DNA of 64,000 nucleotides from assembly GCA_015065765.1 (NCBI GenBank), contig SVPP01000014.1:1-64000 (forward strand), given 5' to 3'. The notes under the pieces are model-generated. The model had not been told where the DNA came from, ran no database searches, and saw only the letters and a list, made by a program, of their open reading frames with translations. Both the position numbers and the translations under genes were made by a program. How positions within the stretch are numbered: the first letter of the stretch is position 1; every line of letters begins with the position of its first letter. Origin of the DNA: Oscillospiraceae bacterium (GTDB taxonomy: Bacteria > Bacillota > Clostridia > Oscillospirales > Acutalibacteraceae). Positions 121 to 60,198 of the stretch are shown one piece after another.

Positions 121-160
121 TTATAAATTATAATTTACCTGTATTTTTAAAACAACTGTT

Positions 161-304
161 CGTAGGGTTCGGCGTCCTCGACGAGCCGTTAAATTAAGCG
201 TTAATTTGCGGACAGTCGAGGACATCCGTCACTACGGCATTTCCGCCCATTTCATTATAAAATTGCGTCGCAGACCTGAAATTCTGCATTCTGCACTCTG
301 CATT
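161..304. repeat. CGTAGGG-hairpin plus TCTGCATT-tail repeat, copy 1
   Basis: It begins CGTAGGG and its first part ends in ACTACGG near 237, so it can fold into a long imperfect hairpin (CCTCGAC at 175-181 pairs with GTCGAGG). A tail follows containing TTTCCGCCCATTTCAT, GTCGCAGACC and TCTGCATTCTGCACTCTGC. The same order of parts occurs at 4321, 20431 and 60001, with different internal hairpin sequences. The function is unknown. It is a short interspersed repeat without coding capacity. Confidence 0.65.
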
Positions 305-4000: not shown

Positions 4001-4290
4001 AAATTATAATTTGACGTTTAGAAATTAGCTATAACAAGTGGCTCCCCTTGTCAGGGGAGCTGTCGTTTTCGCAAGAAAATGACTGAGGGGTAGTTACATA
4101 TTGTTATTATCTCTCCCTCCGTCTTTTGCTTTGCAAAAGCCACCTCCCTCATCAGATGGAGGCAACGCTCTGTTCAACTGCACGCTAAATTGTAATTTAT
4201 CTGTATAGTTCGATTTCAGGCTCCCCTTGAAAACGCAAGGGGAGCTGTCAAAATCTATGATTTTGACTGAGGGGATTTTTCGTTTAAAAT
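4001..4290. repeat. Composite intergenic repeat, copy 1 (pair of 51555-51837)
   Basis: About 240 nt (4001-4240) match 51555-51794 almost base for base, with only a few substitutions seen. The element contains hairpin modules: GGCTCCCC...GGGGAGC followed by ACTGAGGGG, then CCTCCGTC with TTTTGC/GCAAAA, then CCACCTCCCTCATCAGATGGAGG, then a second CTCCCC...GGGGAG. After 4240 the two copies carry different small hairpins before sharing GAGGGGATTTTTCGTTTAAA again. No coding capacity. Confidence 0.85.
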
Positions 4291-4462
4291 TATAATTTGT
4301 CGGGTAATTTATTTTTTAAACGTAGGGCAGGGGCTTGCTCCTGCCGTTAGTTTTTTTACGGCGAGAGTAAACACTCGCCCTACGATGTTTCCGCCTGTTT
4401 CATATAATAATTTGCACCGCAGGCCCGAAATTCTGCATTTTGCACTCTGCACTCTGCATTCA
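4281..4462. repeat. CGTAGGG-hairpin plus TCTGCATT-tail repeat, copy 2
   Basis: Nearly identical to 59965-60142. The hairpin part starts CGTAGGGCAGGGGC (4321) and closes with CTCGCCCTACG (4374-4384). The tail then runs through TTTCCGCCTGTTTCAT, GCAGGCCCGAAATTC and CTGCATTTTGCACTCTGC. It abuts copy 1 of the other repeat, so the two families are joined here into one block of about 460 nt. Confidence 0.8.
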
Positions 4463-5435: not shown

Positions 5436-5454
5436 AATAAACGGAAAATTTAAA

Positions 5455-5565
5455 CTTTCAGGGCGGGGTGTGATTCCCCACCGGTGGTACAGCCCACGAG
5501 CCAGAAATGGTTGATTCGGTGAAATTCCGAAGCCGACGGTATAGTCCGGATGAAAGAAAGTGTTT
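5455..5565 (+). promoter_or_regulatory. FMN riboswitch (RFN element)
   Basis: The conserved RFN landmarks are visible: CAGGGCGGGGTG near 5459, CCCCACCGGTGGTA, AGCCCACGAGC, GATTCGGTGAAATTCCGA, AGCCGACGGTATAGTCCG and GATGAAAGAAAG. P1 is formed by CTTTC (5455-5459) and GAAAG near 5556. It is followed by an intrinsic terminator and a riboflavin transporter gene, so FMN binding should switch transcription off. Confidence 0.95.
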
Positions 5566-6303: not shown

Positions 6304-6402
6304 GCTCTTATTAAGAGTAGCGGAGGGAACAGGCCCAATGAAGCTCGGCAACCTGCAATTGCAAGGTGCTAAATCCTGCGGAATTTATCCGAGAGATAAG
6401 TT
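6304..6402 (+). promoter_or_regulatory. SAM-I (S-box) riboswitch
   Basis: It carries the S-box landmarks CTCTTATTAAGAG, GGAGGGAACAGGCCCAATGA, AGCTCGGCAACC, GGTGCTAAATCC and GAGAGATAAG. CTCTTA at 6305-6310 and TAAG/GAG near 6391-6400 form P1. CCTGCGGA (6375-6382) can pair with TCCGCAGG (6410-6417) as the antiterminator. Confidence 0.95.
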
Positions 6403-13855: not shown

Positions 13856-13893
13856 AAAAGCAGAGTTGATTTTTAAAAATCAACTCTGCTTTT
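13856..13893. terminator. Bidirectional terminator between convergent genes
   Basis: A perfect 38-nt palindrome: AAAAGCAGAGTTGATTTTT followed at once by its complement ending CTGCTTTT. It serves the plus-strand glycosidase gene, and the stop codon of the minus-strand DUF559 gene lies inside it. Confidence 0.85.
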
Positions 13894-14232
13894 AATTATT
13901 TTATCAATGTATTCGCATACAGCGTAAAAATTTTTATCAATGTCTATGTTGCAAAACCGTAAAACTTTCAAATTTATTTTTTCTAATTCTTTTGTTCTGC
14001 TTTCGTCCTTTTCTTTTTGCTCTTTTTCATAATGACCGCCACCGTCAAGTTCAATAACAAGACCTGCTTTCGCACAGTAAAAATCCACTATATAATTTCC
14101 TATTGCTTTTTGTCTCTGGAATCTTACAGGATAATTTCTCAAAAAATCATACCACAATTTTCTTTCCCAGGGTGTTTGGCTTTTTCGAAGCGTTTTTGCA
14201 AGTTTAATGTTATCTTTGTTGTAGTCTTTCAT
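13873..14232 (-). CDS. DUF559 endonuclease-fold protein
   Basis: A 119-residue protein of the DUF559 family (restriction-endonuclease-like, related to the Vsr fold). The diagnostic pattern is present: TLRKSQTPWERKLWYDFLRN, FQRQKAIGNYIVDFYC, then LVIELDGGGHYE with the conserved Glu-x-Asp-Gly-(x)-His, and ending VLRFCN. Family members are taken to be nucleases of unknown role, often near mobile or modification genes. Here it stands alone beside interspersed repeats. The stop codon is inside the shared terminator palindrome. Confidence 0.85.
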   Translation of the reverse strand: MKDYNKDNIKLAKTLRKSQTPWERKLWYDFLRNYPVRFQRQKAIGNYIVDFYCAKAGLVIELDGGGHYEKEQKEKDESRTKELEKINLKVLRFCNIDIDKNFYAVCEYIDKIIKSRVDF

Positions 14233-14271
14233 TTCTTTACCAATCTGAAATTTATTATGAGATTTAAATAA

Positions 14272-14410
14272 CGATTGCCTCCATCTGATGAGGGAGGTGG
14301 CATTTTTCGACAGAAAAATGACGGAGGGAGAGAAAACATATACTTAAACTACCCCTCAGTCAAAAAACTTCGTTTTTCGACAGCTCCCCTGACAAGTGGA
14401 GCCAACTCGA
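14272..14410. repeat. Composite GGGAGG/GGGGAGC repeat, inverted orientation
   Basis: It contains GCCTCCATCTGATGAGGGAGGTGGC, a TTTTTCGACAGAAAAA hairpin, TGACGGAGGGAGAG, ACTACCCCTCAGTC, and CAGCTCCCCTGACAAGTGGAGCC. These are the modules of the 4001 and 51555 repeats in reverse complement. It lies between two minus-strand genes, so it may act as the terminator of the rluA operon's downstream neighbour. Confidence 0.75.
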
Positions 14411-21289: not shown

Positions 21290-21482
21290 TTGTCTCCCCG
21301 CCAAGCCGGAATCGGCCGATAGTAACCTGCTCTTTTGCAGGTGGGCACCGCCCGCTGACTTTGAGCTCCCAACGTCCACCCGAGGGTGGGAGGTCTGCTT
21401 TCCCATACAGCGGAGATAAGTTCCCTTTAAATACGTGTTGGGTTAATATGAACCGAAATTATCGCACAAGGCAGGGAGTTAT
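21290..21482 (-). ncRNA. ssrS: Structured RNA, probable 6S RNA
   Basis: Between two minus-strand genes lies about 190 nt of GC-richer DNA with no frame. Read on the minus strand it begins CTCCCTGCC (21470-21478) and ends GGCGGGGAG (21294-21302), which pair to close the molecule. Inside are GCGATA/TATCGG, CCGCTG/CAGCGG, a CTCCCA...TGGGAG arm with a CCACCC/GGGTGG tip, and ACCTGC-AAAAGA-GCAGGT. Size, paired ends, internal bubble and terminal arm fit 6S RNA, which binds the RNA polymerase holoenzyme. The GGCGGTGCCCACC segment is like other Gram-positive 6S RNAs I recall, but the match is from memory. Confidence 0.5.
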
Positions 21483-22163: not shown

Positions 22164-22368
22164 AGAAAAAGGGCAGACCGAAAAGTTAATATAGTATAAA
22201 ACAAAAATTCAAAATTAAGTTCCGGTTTTCAAGTAACCGATTTAATCCGGTAGTGGTAAACGACATTAACTGAAAAATGACGCACACCCGGTCTGATGAT
22301 CAGAAAAGAACAAAAGCGGAAACGAAGAAAACGAGAACACATAGCAAGGTTATCTTGCAGAAATATAA

Positions 22369-22950
22369 AGAAAAAGGTGGTTCCGATGAAATAGGACCTT
22401 TTCGCTGAAACAAAAAGCGGATAAACAAATAGCGTTGCGGAACACCGCAAGAGAAAACTGAATAGTAAATCAATAAATAATTAACAAATGTAAATAAAAG
22501 AAAAAGGTGGTTCCGATGTACAAATAAGTCAAGTACACCGAAAACTATAAAACTAAAGAAATAGGTGAGTCCAACAATCTGTTTAACATGAATCAGGACA
22601 CTATAAAATTTCAGAAAAAGGTGGTTCCGATGTACAAATAAGTTAAGTACACCGAAAACTATAAACTCAAAGAAAAAGGTGAGTCCGACAATTCGTTTAA
22701 CATGAACCAGGACACTATAAATTCAAGAAAAAGGTGGTTCCGATGTACAAGTAAATCAAGTACACCGAAAACTATAAATTGAAGAAATGGGTGAGTCCCA
22801 AGAACAGTTAACAATGCCCCTAATCAGAGAGGCAAAAGGATAAAAAACTTTTCAGAAAAAGGTGAGTCCCAAATACAGTTAATTGACGGATGAAAAGTCA
22901 TCCATAGGTATTAAAATTTCACTACAAAACTTTTTGAAATAGGTGAGTCC
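22369..22950 (+). repeat. Array of nine 16-nt boxes in two types (A and B)
   Basis: A-type boxes (AGAAAAAGGTGGTTCC) start at 22369, 22499, 22613 and 22726. B-type boxes (AGAAAWRGGTGAGTCC, first base T in the last) start at 22557, 22671, 22783, 22854 and 22935. All are 16 nt with no indels. From 22499 to 22780 they alternate as A-B pairs of about 115 nt with similar linkers: ACCGAAAACTATAAA after A, and AGGACACTATAAA after B. A units carry TGTAC...GTACA after the box; early B units carry GTCC...GGAC. The last three B units have unrelated linkers but keep the box, an AGTTAA/AGTAAA element in each linker, and a hairpin. The intervals (about 56-81 nt) and lack of identical repeats exclude CRISPR. 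Confidence 0.9.
22386..22754 (+). other. Minimal ORFs after the four A-type boxes
   Basis: Each A box is followed by ATG one nt after TTCC, eight nt from the AGG core, and a stop almost at once. ATG-AAA-TAG is at 22386-22394. ATG-TAC-AAA-TAA is at 22516-22527 and 22630-22641. ATG-TAC-AAG-TAA is at 22743-22754. The Lys codon change in the last copy is synonymous. In B boxes the ATG position is ACA, AAG or AAA, so they look like initiation sites without a start codon. Expression of such two- and three-residue peptides is untested. Confidence 0.4.
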
Positions 22951-22986
22951 AAAGAAAAAGTAAATTGACTGCGAAAGCAGACGGAA

Positions 22987-32682: not shown

Positions 32683-32745
32683 CGGCTCCCCTTGAAAACG
32701 TAAGGGGAGCTGTCGTTTTTGTAAGAAAATGACTGAGGGGATTTT
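32683..32745. repeat. GGCTCCCC...GGGGAGC...CTGAGGGG repeat unit
   Basis: It contains GGCTCCCCTTGAAAACGTAAGGGGAGC, then GTCGTTTTTGTAAGAAAATGAC, then TGAGGGGATTTTTCG. It is one module of the composite repeats at 4001 and 51555, here alone between the nudix and carboxypeptidase genes, where the first hairpin plus T-rich DNA could terminate transcription. Confidence 0.75.
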
Positions 32746-32815
32746 TCGTTGAAAGTTGCAGTAATGAATCGGGAAAAATTTTCATAAAAATATCAATGTG
32801 AAAGGAGATATTATA

Positions 32816-41232: not shown

Positions 41233-41275
41233 ATGCAGAATGCAGAGTTGATGCATAACTGAATGTACATATAAA

Positions 41276-42568
41276 TTATAATTTCTCAACAAGCGTATCT
41301 ACATCTTTAAGATTAATTCTCTTCGACACGATGTAAGTTCTTCTTGATTGTTTGCCTTTGTCGGTTTTCTGTGTACCTTCTTTCATTTCCTCAGGTGAGA
41401 AAATGCCGTATGAAGATGTGACAACTGTGCCGTCAGGGAGAACAACATTTCCGCAGTAGCCTGTGTCGCCGTTGGCGGCAAGAGCAGGAGAGTCCTGATT
41501 GTTAAGATATGTGTGTGCAATCTTTATGCGGTACTGACCTTCCTTTCCGTTTTTAAGGTCATCGTATGTACCAACCCATGCAACCCAACCTTCGGAGTAC
41601 CAGTTTCTTTTGACAGGTTCCACGTTATTTTTGTCATAGGCTTCCTTGTTTCTCTCAATTGAGCGGAAGGTGATGAAAAGTCTGCCGTCGGGAGTGTAGT
41701 CTGCCTTGTGTCTCTCGCCGTTCAGTGAAACAGGAGCTTCAACCGGCTCAGACCATGTTTTGCCCTCGTCATTTGAGAACATAAGAAGGCTTGTGCATCT
41801 TTTTTTGTTACACCTTGCGATAAGGCAGATTTCGTCTCCTTCACCCTTGTCTGAACGGACAGCCTCAACCTCGCAGATGCCTGCATATTTTTCATATTTT
41901 CTGTATTTCTTAAGATACTTTCTCGGTTCTGACCAATGGTAGTCACCATTTTCGTCAAAAGTGAGAATAGTCATGAAATTCTCGAATTTGCTGTTATGGA
42001 AAAGAGCCATCCACTTGTCAACAAATTTTCCGTTTTCCTTGAGACGTGTAAGGGAAGCCATGGAAACTACGGGGATTGTGGGGTAGTCAGAGTTCTTGTC
42101 ATAGAAAAGTTTAAACTCTGACCAGGTTTCACCCTCATCGTCAGAAATTGAACAGTTCCATCCGCCGGGAGTGGGAGTGTTCGGCCACTTGGGATTACCT
42201 GAAATAAGAATCAGTTTTTCTTTGCCGTCAGTAAACTGCAAACGGTAAACAGTAGGTGTTTCAAGGGATTTCTTCCATGATTCGGGGGGATTTTTTATTG
42301 TCTCTGTGTAGCTTTTACCGCCGTCAACAGAAATTTTTGAAATGATTCTTCCCTTGCCGTGACCTTCGGGGTAGAAGGTGAGGACGTTTCCGTTTCTGAG
42401 AAGAACTGAATCGGGATGTCCTAAGTAGGCAGATGAATCATCCACGGTCACATTTTCATAAAGATATTCAAGCTCCGCAGGTGTGTTTTCAGGCTTTAGA
42501 GCTAAATCAACCTGAGGGATTGAATAGTAAGGAACTTTTTTTGCAAAAGGTTTTCTGAAGAAAAACAT
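41276..42568 (-). CDS. Sialidase-like BNR/Asp-box protein, cytosolic
   Basis: A 430-residue six-bladed propeller protein of the sialidase superfamily. Asp-box motifs (SxDxGxxW) are visible as SVDGGKSY, SDDEGETWSE and SNDEGKTWSE. LGHPDSVLLRNGNVLTFYPEG at the front is typical of exo-sialidase-like families. There is no signal peptide, so it acts inside the cell or is not a classical secreted neuraminidase. ATG 42568 is seven nt after AAGGTG. It is a single-gene unit under promoter 42599-42627. Other Asp-box glycosidases or phosphorylase-like enzymes are possible. Confidence 0.65.
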   Translation of the reverse strand: MFFFRKPFAKKVPYYSIPQVDLALKPENTPAELEYLYENVTVDDSSAYLGHPDSVLLRNGNVLTFYPEGHGKGRIISKISVDGGKSYTETIKNPPESWKKSLETPTVYRLQFTDGKEKLILISGNPKWPNTPTPGGWNCSISDDEGETWSEFKLFYDKNSDYPTIPVVSMASLTRLKENGKFVDKWMALFHNSKFENFMTILTFDENGDYHWSEPRKYLKKYRKYEKYAGICEVEAVRSDKGEGDEICLIARCNKKRCTSLLMFSNDEGKTWSEPVEAPVSLNGERHKADYTPDGRLFITFRSIERNKEAYDKNNVEPVKRNWYSEGWVAWVGTYDDLKNGKEGQYRIKIAHTYLNNQDSPALAANGDTGYCGNVVLPDGTVVTSSYGIFSPEEMKEGTQKTDKGKQSRRTYIVSKRINLKDVDTLVEKL

Positions 42569-51554: not shown

Positions 51555-51837
51555 AAATTATAATTTGACGTTTAGAAATTAGCTATAACAAGTGGCTCCC
51601 CATGTCAGGGGAGCTGTCGTTTTCGCAAGAAAATGACTGAGGGGTAGTTACATATTGTTATTATCTTTCCCTCCGTCTTTTGCTTTGCAAAAGCCACCTC
51701 CCTCATCAGATGGAGGCAACGCTCTGTTCAACTGCACGCTAAATTGTAATTTATCTGTATAGTTCGATTTCAGGCTCCCCTTGAAAATGCAAGGGGAGGT
51801 GGCAACCGTCAGGTTGACGGAGGGGATTTTTCGTTTA
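51555..51837. repeat. Composite intergenic repeat, copy 2
   Basis: Almost identical to 4001-4240 through 51794 (for example CCCCATG for CCCCTTG, CTTTCCC for CTCTCCC). It then carries GAGGTGGCAACCGTCAGGTTGACGGAGGGG where copy 1 has GAGCTGTCAAAATCTATGATTTTGACTGAGGGG. Both return to ATTTTTCGTTTAAA. It ends 16 nt before the -35 box of typA. Confidence 0.88.
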
Positions 51838-51852
51838 AATTATTAAAATCTC

Positions 51853-55810: not shown

Positions 55811-55832
55811 TTTAAATTGACGGCAATTATCA

Positions 55833-55890
55833 GCTTCCCTTGAAAATGCAAGGGGAGCTGTCTGCGTTTAGAAGACTGAGGGGATTTTTC
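55833..55890. repeat. CTTCCCTTG...CAAGGGGAGC...CTGAGGGG repeat unit
   Basis: GCTTCCCTTGAAAATGCAAGGGGAGC hairpin, then GTCTGCGTTTAGAAGAC, then TGAGGGGATTTTTC. It is the same module as at 32683 and the end of 51555, located where a terminator for the transporter gene is expected. Confidence 0.75.
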
Positions 55891-55900
55891 ATTAAAAATA

Positions 55901-57461: not shown

Positions 57462-59888
57462 ATGAGACTCTTCAATAAATTTATCCGTTTTGTGTCAGGT
57501 GCAGAGCTTGCACAGAAGGAAACAGGCGGTACGGTTACAGGCGAAGCCAACGAAAGCATCAGGCCATATCTTCGCTCTTGTGCAGCAGAAGGTGCTGTTC
57601 TTTTGAAGAATAATGACACTCTTCCTTTTAATGAAAACAATAATATCGCAGTTTTCGGCAGAGTACAATGTGACTATTTTTATGTTGGCAACGGCTCAGG
57701 CGGAGATGTGAGAACGCCATACAAAGTAAGCCTTATTGAAGGTCTTGAAAACAGTTCTCTTGTTATCAACGAAGAGCTGAAAGAAAAATACAAAGCATGG
57801 ACTTCAAAGAAAAGAAATATTCCTGATCCGGGTTTCTGGGCGCACTGGCCAAGATACTATGAGGAAATGCCCATTTCTGTTGCTGAAATTAAAAAGGCAA
57901 AGGAAAAGAGCGACAGTGCAGTTATCGTCATCGGCAGATCATCAGGTGAGGACAGAGAAAATGTTCTGAAAAAGGGAAGCTTCTACCTGACTGACAAAGA
58001 GAAAAAGCTCATACAAAATGTTACATCTGTCTTTAAAAAAACAGTTCTCATTCTCAATGTGGGAAATGTAATTGACTTTGAAGAAATTGATGCATTTGGT
58101 GATAAAATTTCTGCAATTCTTGTTGTCTGGCAGGGCGGTATGGAAAGCGGAAACGCAGTTGCTGACATTTTGTCGGGTAAAGTGAATCCCTCAGGTAAAC
58201 TGACAGATACAATTGCGAAAACATACGAAGATTACCCGTCTTCAAAGGATTTCGGCAAACTGAAATTCAACAACTACACCGAGGATATTTTCGTCGGCTA
58301 CAGATATTTTGAAACCTTTGCAAAGGACAGGGTTCTTTATGAATTCGGATTCGGACTTTCATACACAACCTTTGATGTTTCTTTTGTGAACGCAGAAGAG
58401 AAAGAAAATGAAATTGTATTTACCGCAAAGGTTAAAAATACAGGTGATATTTCAGGTAAAGAGACAGTTCAGCTTTATTTCTCTGCACCTCAGGGAAAGC
58501 TTGGTAAAGCTGAAAAAAGCCTTGTAGGTTTCAAGAAAACAAAACTTCTTAAGCCCTCAGAAGAGGAAATTCTCACAATTACCGCAGAAAAATACACTTG
58601 TGCATCTTACGATGATTCGGGCGTTACAGGTCACAAAAATTCTTACATCCTTGAAAAAGGTGATTATGAATTTTATCTCGGCACAAGCGTTAAAAAGTGC
58701 GGAAAGGTTTACACAAAAACTCTCGCAGAGGATGAAATTCTCTGCACACTTACAGAAGCTATGGCTGTCAGACCTGATATGGCTTTTGACAGAATGAAAG
58801 CATCTGTTAAAGACGGAAAAATTATTCTCACAAAAGAAAAAGTCCCCACTGTCACAACAAATCTGAGGCAGATAATTCTTGAAAATCTGCCTGCGGGCAC
58901 TGAAATGACTGGGGACAAGGGATATAAACTTTCTGACGTCAAAGCGGGCAAGGTGACAATGGAAGATTTTGTTGCTCAGCTTGATTTGACAGAGCTTGAA
59001 GCTATCAGCCGTGGTGAGGGACTTATGAATTCGTCTCTTGGTGCAGAGGGTAACGCAGGCGCTCTCGGCGGAGTTTTGCCCTCACTTCGTGAAAAGGGAA
59101 TCCCCGCTATGACGACCACTGACGGACCTTCAGGTATCAGGCTCATGGCGTCCTGCTCACTTCTTCCCTGCGGTACACTTATCGCATCAACATGGGATGA
59201 AGAACTGGTTTCTGATCTCTTTGAAAAAGTTGGCGAAGAAATGACCTGCAGAGGAAGTGATATGCTCCTTGCTCCCGGTATGAACATCCACAGAAACCCA
59301 CTTTGCGGAAGAAATTTTGAATATTATTCCGAAGACCCCTTTGTTACCGGTAAAATTGCAGCTGCAACTGTCAGGGGCATACAGAAGCACAACCTTTCAG
59401 CTTGTCCCAAACATTTTGCCTGCAACAATCAGGAGTTTAACAGAAACCACACAGACTCCGTTGTTTCTGAGCGTGCACTGAGAGAAATTTATCTCAAAGG
59501 CTTTGAAATCTGCGTGAAAGAGGCAAGGCCACTTAACATTATGACAAGCTATAACAAAATCAACGGCGTGTGGAGCCATTATAACTACGAGCTTTGCACA
59601 ACCATTCTCAGAGGAGAATGGGGATACGAGGGTAATGTTATTACTGACTGGTGGATGAGATATGCACCATCTCCCGAATTCCCTGAAATGAGAGACAATG
59701 CATATCGTGTCCGTGCACAGGTAGACGTGCTCATGCCCGGCGGAAAAACTGCTGTCAGTAAGTCAGCATCAAATGACGGCTCGCTGACTGAAACATACGG
59801 CAAGAAAGATGGCATAACTCTGGGTGAACTTCAGCGAAGTGCAAAAAATGTGCTGAACTACATAATCAAATCAGGTAAAGCTTTTTAG
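57462..59888 (+). CDS. Beta-glucosidase/xylosidase-type GH3, permuted domains
   Basis: An 808-residue cytosolic GH3 enzyme with reversed domain order. The usual C-terminal (alpha/beta)6 domain comes first (SCAAEGAVLLKNNDTLPF near residue 45, GxGSGGDVRTPY), then the fibronectin-III-like part (YEFGFGLSYTTF, SGKETVQLYFSAP near 330). The TIM-barrel domain is last (TTDGPSGIRL, GRNFEYYSEDP, CPKHFACNNQE). The nucleophile Asp lies in GNVITDWW near residue 728. Reversed GH3 enzymes are known from Ruminococcus albus and Butyrivibrio. Substrate is probably a beta-glucoside or xyloside. It lies nine nt after GH51. Confidence 0.9.
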   Translation: MRLFNKFIRFVSGAELAQKETGGTVTGEANESIRPYLRSCAAEGAVLLKNNDTLPFNENNNIAVFGRVQCDYFYVGNGSGGDVRTPYKVSLIEGLENSSLVINEELKEKYKAWTSKKRNIPDPGFWAHWPRYYEEMPISVAEIKKAKEKSDSAVIVIGRSSGEDRENVLKKGSFYLTDKEKKLIQNVTSVFKKTVLILNVGNVIDFEEIDAFGDKISAILVVWQGGMESGNAVADILSGKVNPSGKLTDTIAKTYEDYPSSKDFGKLKFNNYTEDIFVGYRYFETFAKDRVLYEFGFGLSYTTFDVSFVNAEEKENEIVFTAKVKNTGDISGKETVQLYFSAPQGKLGKAEKSLVGFKKTKLLKPSEEEILTITAEKYTCASYDDSGVTGHKNSYILEKGDYEFYLGTSVKKCGKVYTKTLAEDEILCTLTEAMAVRPDMAFDRMKASVKDGKIILTKEKVPTVTTNLRQIILENLPAGTEMTGDKGYKLSDVKAGKVTMEDFVAQLDLTELEAISRGEGLMNSSLGAEGNAGALGGVLPSLREKGIPAMTTTDGPSGIRLMASCSLLPCGTLIASTWDEELVSDLFEKVGEEMTCRGSDMLLAPGMNIHRNPLCGRNFEYYSEDPFVTGKIAAATVRGIQKHNLSACPKHFACNNQEFNRNHTDSVVSERALREIYLKGFEICVKEARPLNIMTSYNKINGVWSHYNYELCTTILRGEWGYEGNVITDWWMRYAPSPEFPEMRDNAYRVRAQVDVLMPGGKTAVSKSASNDGSLTETYGKKDGITLGELQRSAKNVLNYIIKSGKAF

Positions 59889-59923
59889 CGGAAAATCCCC
59901 TCAGTCATTTTTGACAAAATGAC

Positions 59924-59957
59924 GGCTCCCCTTGTATTTTCAAGGGGAGCCTTTTGA
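59924..59957 (+). terminator. Terminator of the GH51-GH3 operon, within a repeat unit
   Basis: GGCTCCCCTTG (59924-59934) pairs perfectly with CAAGGGGAGCC (59941-59951), followed by TTTT. It belongs to the interspersed repeat family in inverted orientation (CCCCTCAGTC at 59897). Confidence 0.82.
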
Positions 59958-59964
59958 TAGTCGG

Positions 59965-60142
59965 ATAAATTATAATTTGTCGGGTAATTTATTTTTTAAA
60001 CGTAGGGCAGGGGCTTGCTCCTGCCGTTAGTTTTTTACGGCGAGAGTAAACCCTCGCCCTACGATGTTTCCGCCTGTTTCATATAATAATTTGCACCGCA
60101 GGCCCGAAATTCTGCATTTTGCACTCTGCATTCTGCACTAAA
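59965..60142. repeat. CGTAGGG-hairpin plus TCTGCATT-tail repeat, copy 4
   Basis: It matches 4286-4462 almost exactly over about 175 nt: AATTATAATTTGTCGGGTAATTT, CGTAGGGCAGGGGCTTGCTC, CTCGCCCTACGATG, and the CTGCATTTTGCACTCTGC tail. Differences are single bases (one T fewer in the T run; CCCTCG for CACTCG). Confidence 0.88.
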
Positions 60143-60194
60143 AATCCCTATCGGGATCTTTCGCTTACGCTTGAAGATGACCGACAGGGATTTT
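60140..60194 (-). terminator. Terminator of the F420-ligase-like gene
   Basis: Minus strand: AAAATCCCTGTCGG pairs with CCGATAGGGATTTTT around a 26-nt loop. It follows the stop at 60199 by about five nt. Confidence 0.7.
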
Positions 60195-60198
60195 GTTA

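Follow-up and report, generated by a model that had tools for sequence, protein, structure and literature searches.

The repeat block at 4 kb of the window, that is, of the whole 64,000-nucleotide stretch that was analysed, belongs to a real, multi-copy and modular system of hairpin repeats. The anatomy of its three modules, A, B and C, is secure: each ends in a common 12-base palindrome, AAATTATAATTT, or a near variant, and we infer that the modules are mobile. The explanation that we hold to be probable, if not strongly so, is that they are stacked non-autonomous hairpin elements with a common end motif, that RAYT-like and DUF559 proteins are their helpers, and that the palindromic border is both end and landing site. 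It is based on the anatomy and copies of the modules, the enrichment and spacing of the border, the stacks, the identity of REP sequences, the adjacency and co-occurrence of DUF559 genes, and predicted protein folds.

At 4 kb all three modules are read on the forward strand. Module A (4001..4198) carries two inverted double stem-loop units, at 4040-4090 and about 4113-4167, between its borders; module B (4187..4298) carries one such unit (4219-4275) with a border on each side; module C (4287..4460, end approximate) consists of a border, a spacer, a REPIN (4322-4383) and a tail from another repeat family, after which no right border is recognisable. Neighbouring modules have one border in common. 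The left end of A is AAATTATAATTT (4001..4012), AAATTGTAATTT (4187..4198) is common to A and B, and a further AAATTATAATTT (4287..4298) is common to B and C. Measured from border to border, A has 186 bases and B 99-100, and their predicted folds have z values of -5.0 and -5.5, respectively. The tail of module C (GCACCGCAGGCCCGAAATTCTGCATTTTGCACTCTGC; 4386-4460, 60063-60137 and 232-302 of the window) is a separate repeat family that also occurs in other genera, with 11 matches in one genome (G056).

Further copies lie in the same window. A second A (51555..51752, forward strand) and a second B (51741..51852, forward), with a swapped second stem and a degenerate right border (AAATTATTAAAA), adjoin each other, the latter next to the promoter region of a TypA-like gene. 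The second copy of C (59967..60137, forward) stands behind a reversed B-like unit (59882..59978, reverse strand) with which it has the border at 59967-59978 in common. Two B-like units lack exact borders (32684..32757 and 55832..55899, both forward), a border followed by a GTAG-type module and a C-type tail occupies 125..304 (forward), and a solitary border lies between two genes at 41273..41284. The only Rfam matches in the window are riboswitches (FMN, 5450-5565; SAM, 6305-6402) and 6S RNA (21291-21480). Units of about 114 bases with the core GAAAAAGGTGGTTCCGATG are repeated in tandem from 22365 to 22963.

The first-pass annotation had described 4001-4240 as nearly identical to 51555-51794, and 4286-4462 to 59965-60142. 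Indeed, 237 of 240 bases agree in the first pair, and 4287-4458 is 98% identical to 59967-60137. The E-values of the block against the genome, 1e-129 and 1e-80, exclude chance. The A-B match ends at 4251/51805 if followed at 98% identity, and at 4296/51849 at 94%, with the swapped hairpin included. The exchange of the last small hairpin had also been read correctly: the second stem is AAAATC/GATTTT at 4 kb and of the AACCGTCAGGTT type at 51.5 kb. Since the bases flanking it switch too (AGCTGTC..GACTGAG at 4 kb, AGGTGGC..GACGGAG at 51.5 kb), the swap is a change between two recurring subtypes. The annotation saw two joined repeat families; their adjacency stands but their number does not, its first family being A and B together.

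A search of the genome gave 46 places related to the 4-kb block. Copy numbers are lower bounds, because an A copy is cut by the end of contig 43 and another lies in the first 320 bases of contig 13. Modules occur singly, in pairs and in threes: A without B on contigs 7, 13 and 38, lone B at several places, A-B on contig 14 and at 51.5 kb, and A-B-C at 4 kb. The view that non-coding blocks had been copied and their modules exchanged is thereby borne out; that the copying was recent is true of A, whose fuller copies are 94-100% identical among themselves, but not of B in general (82-98%).

The border is strongly enriched. AAATTATAATTT occurs exactly 44 times in the source genome and never in the reversed-sequence control, and AAATTRTAATTT has 51 forward matches against one in the control. 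Four of six sister species contain 182, 124, 93 and 44 borders and the other two 1 and 0, so that the border is restricted to five of the seven species of the genus examined. In 119 other genera of the family (120 family genomes) it occurs at most 9 times each, with similar control counts in the highest-count genomes, and no copy lies in the 619,043 bases that make up 80 other loci. A border of this kind is peculiar at the level of the genus.

Its position is regular. In 491,504 bases of a relative (G002), a border with at least 10 of 12 bases matching lies 22-25 nt upstream of 37 of 46 GTAG hairpins. Unrelated hairpin families lie between borders, namely GTAG REPINs, CTCCCC double stem-loops, GTCATTCTC..GAATCTCG and CAGTGATA, and exactly bordered modules of differing content stand in rows of at most three. 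Another dispersed family of hairpins (GTCATTCTCGAACG..GAATCTCG or similar) was seen between or next to borders in L111 (8088-8257), in L012 and at 60145-60195 of the window. The right border of A is AAATTGTAATTT in five of the six copies that keep it, regardless of the left one, which argues that at least this border copy belongs to A and travels with it. The border is almost absent from the two species that lack the modules, so that a solitary border is more probably what is left of an element than a site that was there before. Just inside this common palindromic end the bases show a weak consensus, while outside it conservation falls off gradually, and no target-site duplication was recognisable in the flanks listed. 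A comparison of the outer with the inner half of the border, meant to tell which of them derives from the target, yielded artefacts of one-base shifts. No clean joint of an empty site was found in the TypA and ACP regions of relatives, which show a module present or absent; at TypA the relatives are 77-88% identical and synteny is broken.

Module C is a REPIN, and thus of a known kind, with an unusual transposase gene. Its GTAG-tagged hairpin GTAGGGCAGGGGCTTGCTCCTGCC begins at 4322 on the forward strand and the inverted partner ends in CCCTAC (4378). Y1_Tnp matches in the source genome number four. Two are of the IS200 type, including a fragment, and the others are the short genes L041 and L042, which exceed the Pfam Y1_Tnp cut-off. 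These two score 63.9 and 63.8 bits against the NCBIfam model REP_Tyr_transpos (NF047646), below its cut-off of 80, and are therefore called RAYT-like. H80, H82 and Y136, of the HUH motif and the catalytic tyrosine region, are invariant in a 13-row alignment, and the fold matches that of a RAYT bound to REP (4er8). The first-pass annotation had named RAYT among the transposases that might be associated, and here it was well aimed: the hairpin of module C is identical in 25 of 25 bases to a REP inside the L042 reading frame. Among 23 distinct GTAG hairpins in the stretches read of the source genome, eight agree in at least 22 of 25 bases with a REP embedded in a gene of this genome and 15 have no close match in its RAYT-like genes; for G002 such matches number 13 of 42, again in the stretches read. 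On the basis of this identity a RAYT-like protein is a candidate helper that may move module C.

The location of the REPs is what makes these genes unusual. L041 (1372-1848) and L042 (1465-1959) each contain an inverted pair of GTAGGG-tagged hairpins within the reading frame. Of 21 Y1_Tnp matches in the genus, 14 are full-length RAYT-like genes, the other seven being IS200-type or fragments, and all 14 have both tags inside the frame, as has a fifteenth RAYT-like gene at the end of L112. In all 13 genus genes tested (a set without L134) the in-frame inverted repeat beats 200 codon shuffles. The E. coli rayT gene, used as a control, has its REPs outside and no inverted repeat within the ORF. 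Among the best 80 of 564 relatives, taken from genome contigs (L136-L215), 67 beat all 20 shuffles, 63 of them with GTAGGG/CCCTAC tags, and the median distance between REP arms is 171 bases; GTAG-type repeats flank the gene instead in some of the remaining 13 (L169, L191 and L209). The embedded REPs occupy two fixed places; their stems vary between paralogues, and the two arms within one gene match. In a model of L041 (mean pLDDT 81) they encode about residues 37-44 and 92-100, both in predicted connections between secondary-structure elements, and the second segment follows the HUH strand. Beyond the genus eight GTAG pairs were available, a number too small for a test of other borders.

Modules A and B point to DUF559 as the partner of a second repeat class. 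Both contain a two-stem unit, GGGAGCTGTC-stem-GACTGAGGG, whose exact pattern occurs in 51 of 197 genomes of the order; the reversed control occurs in none of those listed. The pattern listing gave 67 distinct forms, 63 of them long enough to judge, and in 53 of these 63 the inner sequence of the second stem forms all three next pairs (mean of shuffles 11.8, maximum 21), so that this stem is kept as structure. The first-pass annotation had reported no transposase in the window. This is correct for transposases, but at 13873-14404 there is a DUF559 endonuclease gene (13873..14232, reverse strand), the proposed partner of the A/B units, with an A-type unit pair directly upstream (14275..14404, reverse strand). 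The protein matches PF04480 at 99.4 bits. Searches with its family profile and with its model hit the homing endonuclease I-Bth0305I and a Neisseria endonuclease-like protein (3hrl); the fold matches are 3hrl, 3r3p and, more weakly, 1vsr (mean pLDDT of the model 76), in line with a Vsr/I-Bth0305I-like fold. The protein, a putative nuclease by family and predicted fold, is proposed to act on the A/B repeats.

Unit pairs adjoin other DUF559 genes of the genus as well. For example, L239, L242 and L243 have an inverted copy at either side of the gene; the one downstream lies near the gene end or overlaps it. An inverted repeat spans five of ten DUF559 genes of the genus and 14 of 28 from other genera, compared with 11 of 852 control ORFs (p 9e-17 for the other genera). 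This control is conservative, as it includes some RAYT-like genes and their neighbours (L136-L215). The DUF559 loci L241, L255 and L269, which had no ORF call, were left out. A control of mismatched flank pairs was rejected in favour of the 852 ORFs, since many of these DUF559 genes have one repeat family in common at their flanks. Inverted double stem-loops of the CTCCC type flank DUF559 genes throughout the order (L237-L277). At six loci (L242, L243, L253, L254, L256 and L270) the C-terminal residues of the protein are KQSLSQ or QQSLSQ and fall within or beside the downstream repeat.

Unit and gene also occur together. Of the 197 genomes, 38 have both, 13 only the unit, 22 only the gene and 124 neither (p 1.5e-14, kinship not corrected for). 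The 13 of 51 unit-positive genomes without a DUF559 match include two with many units (G101, 42; G133, 11). A unit lies within 301 bases of 14 of 24 DUF559 genes, a biased sample, since these genes were picked through contigs among the listed unit positions, plus misses. Within the genus, the five border-rich members have DUF559, and it was not found in the remaining two.

The proposed explanation can be put as follows. The 4-kb block would be a stack of three small non-autonomous elements with the common end motif AAATTATAATTT. A RAYT-like HUH transposase, whose gene lies elsewhere in the genome, would copy the REPIN of module C in trans. As the most likely mechanism for A and B, the DUF559 protein would nick or break DNA at or beside such units, and repair would copy them to new places; nicking by an enzyme of the homing-endonuclease kind, with copying during repair, would be the simplest scheme for these two modules. 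The border would arrive with the elements and act as their end and as a preferred landing site. If new elements land at old borders, stacks with one border per junction, exchanged modules and, after loss, a lone border would result. Movement by either enzyme, the chemistry involved and the role of the border are inferred. Several results count against this explanation: no empty site, target-site duplication or autonomous bordered element was found, 13 unit-positive genomes gave no DUF559 match, the two RAYT-like proteins score below the REP_Tyr_transpos cut-off, and 15 of the 23 REPs have no close match in the RAYT-like genes of their genome. Close AAATTATAATTT borders are also lacking around the RAYT-like and DUF559 genes themselves; at L134 and L244 borders are at least several hundred bases away, and L244 has a one-base border variant inside the gene.

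Several features have counterparts in known systems. In the IS200/IS605 single-strand transposons (IS608, ISDra2), subterminal hairpins lie at a fixed distance from a short outside site. The present modules resemble them in this layout, and no target duplication was seen; they differ in having an inverted pair of like hairpins, a long palindromic outer site and no tnpA between the ends. BOX elements of pneumococci are modular intergenic repeats with exchangeable hairpin modules, in which they are alike; their sequences differ, and the modules described here share a palindromic border and have candidate partner genes. The motif that gives the Vsr-like homing endonucleases their name is EDxHD. 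The DUF559 protein is related to I-Bth0305I in sequence and predicted fold; unlike it, the gene is free-standing, with no intron or intein seen, and its flanking double stem-loops are also found alone genome-wide. With REPIN/RAYT systems (REPtrons) the modules have in common inverted GTAG-tagged pairs, many intergenic copies, an HUH-Y1 transposase-like gene and the fold of E. coli RAYT (4er8). However, the REP pair lies within the transposase frame rather than flanking the gene, and the intergenic copies have a fixed AT-rich palindrome 22-25 nt outside the GTAG.

According to an excerpt of PMC8266576, RAYT cleaves single-stranded REP DNA at CT or CA near the hairpin, the site being chosen at least partly by the GTAG guide. 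A REP hairpin with an outside site at fixed distance would fit this layout; the border itself holds no CT, and CT or a similar dinucleotide often occurs a few bases inside it. Excerpts of other papers state that REPs invariably flank RAYT genes (PMC2817692), or that either REPs or TIRs do, some of them overlapping a gene end, with intragenic REPs known in unrelated genes (PMC3733652); those of PMC6006769 and PMC8049555 make no mention of in-gene REPs, and PMC12907096, in its excerpt, terms a DUF559 protein Vsr-like. Among the papers listed by literature searches, none was recognisable as a description of REPs inside RAYT frames, and none connected DUF559 with repeats in its title or the start of its abstract. 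The REPs within the frame, the association with DUF559 and the border appear to be new variations.

The modules could instead be classical MITEs whose lost or unseen DDE-type transposase recognises AAATTATAATTT-RTCKGTRT terminal inverted repeats, with the REP and DUF559 hairpins as passengers. This is possible, if rather unlikely. It would account for the common ends of unrelated contents, for the weak consensus in the first bases inside the border and for the restriction of the border to one genus while REPs and DUF559 units are widespread. However, no autonomous element with a transposase gene within such ends was found in about 555 kb, a result that also speaks against the thought, raised in the first-pass annotation, that the modules are parts of one larger known IS. 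Moreover, a single border common to neighbouring modules would not directly follow from two abutting insertions, no target duplication was seen and conservation declines gradually outside the border.

It is improbable that the repeats are functional RNA or DNA hairpins, such as terminators or RNA stabilisers, whose passive spread is due to homologous recombination and gene conversion, with the enzymes incidental. Most copies do follow stop codons and terminators, the stems fold well and the second stem covaries as counted above, but the flanks of copies are unrelated, the bordered ends have a fixed spacing, REPs are identical to those in genes and DUF559 adjacency far exceeds the control. Mobilisation by the genuine IS200/IS605 TnpA of the same genome (L039), an IS200-type open frame, seems very improbable: the frame includes a run of N and its match to the profile stops at position 88 of 121, no border or GTAG/CTCCC module was seen in its flanks, and the border-rich sister species have IS200-type fragments or none, G002 with its abundant modules having only a fragment. 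That the copies are misassembly duplicates, a possibility noted in the first-pass annotation, is barely conceivable. Although the draft is fragmented (43 contigs, with A copies at the contig ends mentioned above), the copies differ in sequence, each has unique genes of its own around it, and sister genomes contain these families too.

For stacked non-autonomous elements with helpers in trans, a wider picture can be offered tentatively. Clostridia may harbour two parallel trans-mobilised hairpin systems, one of RAYT with in-frame REPs encoding two surface loops and one of DUF559, and in one genus these may have acquired a common palindromic docking end through which they join head to tail in the manner of cassettes. 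To our knowledge, DUF559, a homing-endonuclease-like family, is not known as a driver of genome-wide repeats. If its link with the units is causal, it would give a role to a common protein of unknown function and a helper gene to many unexplained hairpin repeats of gut Clostridia. REPs within the reading frame couple the transposase to its own substrate, which makes the co-evolution of REP and RAYT directly testable, and the common border would be a natural example of cassette-like stacking without an integron.
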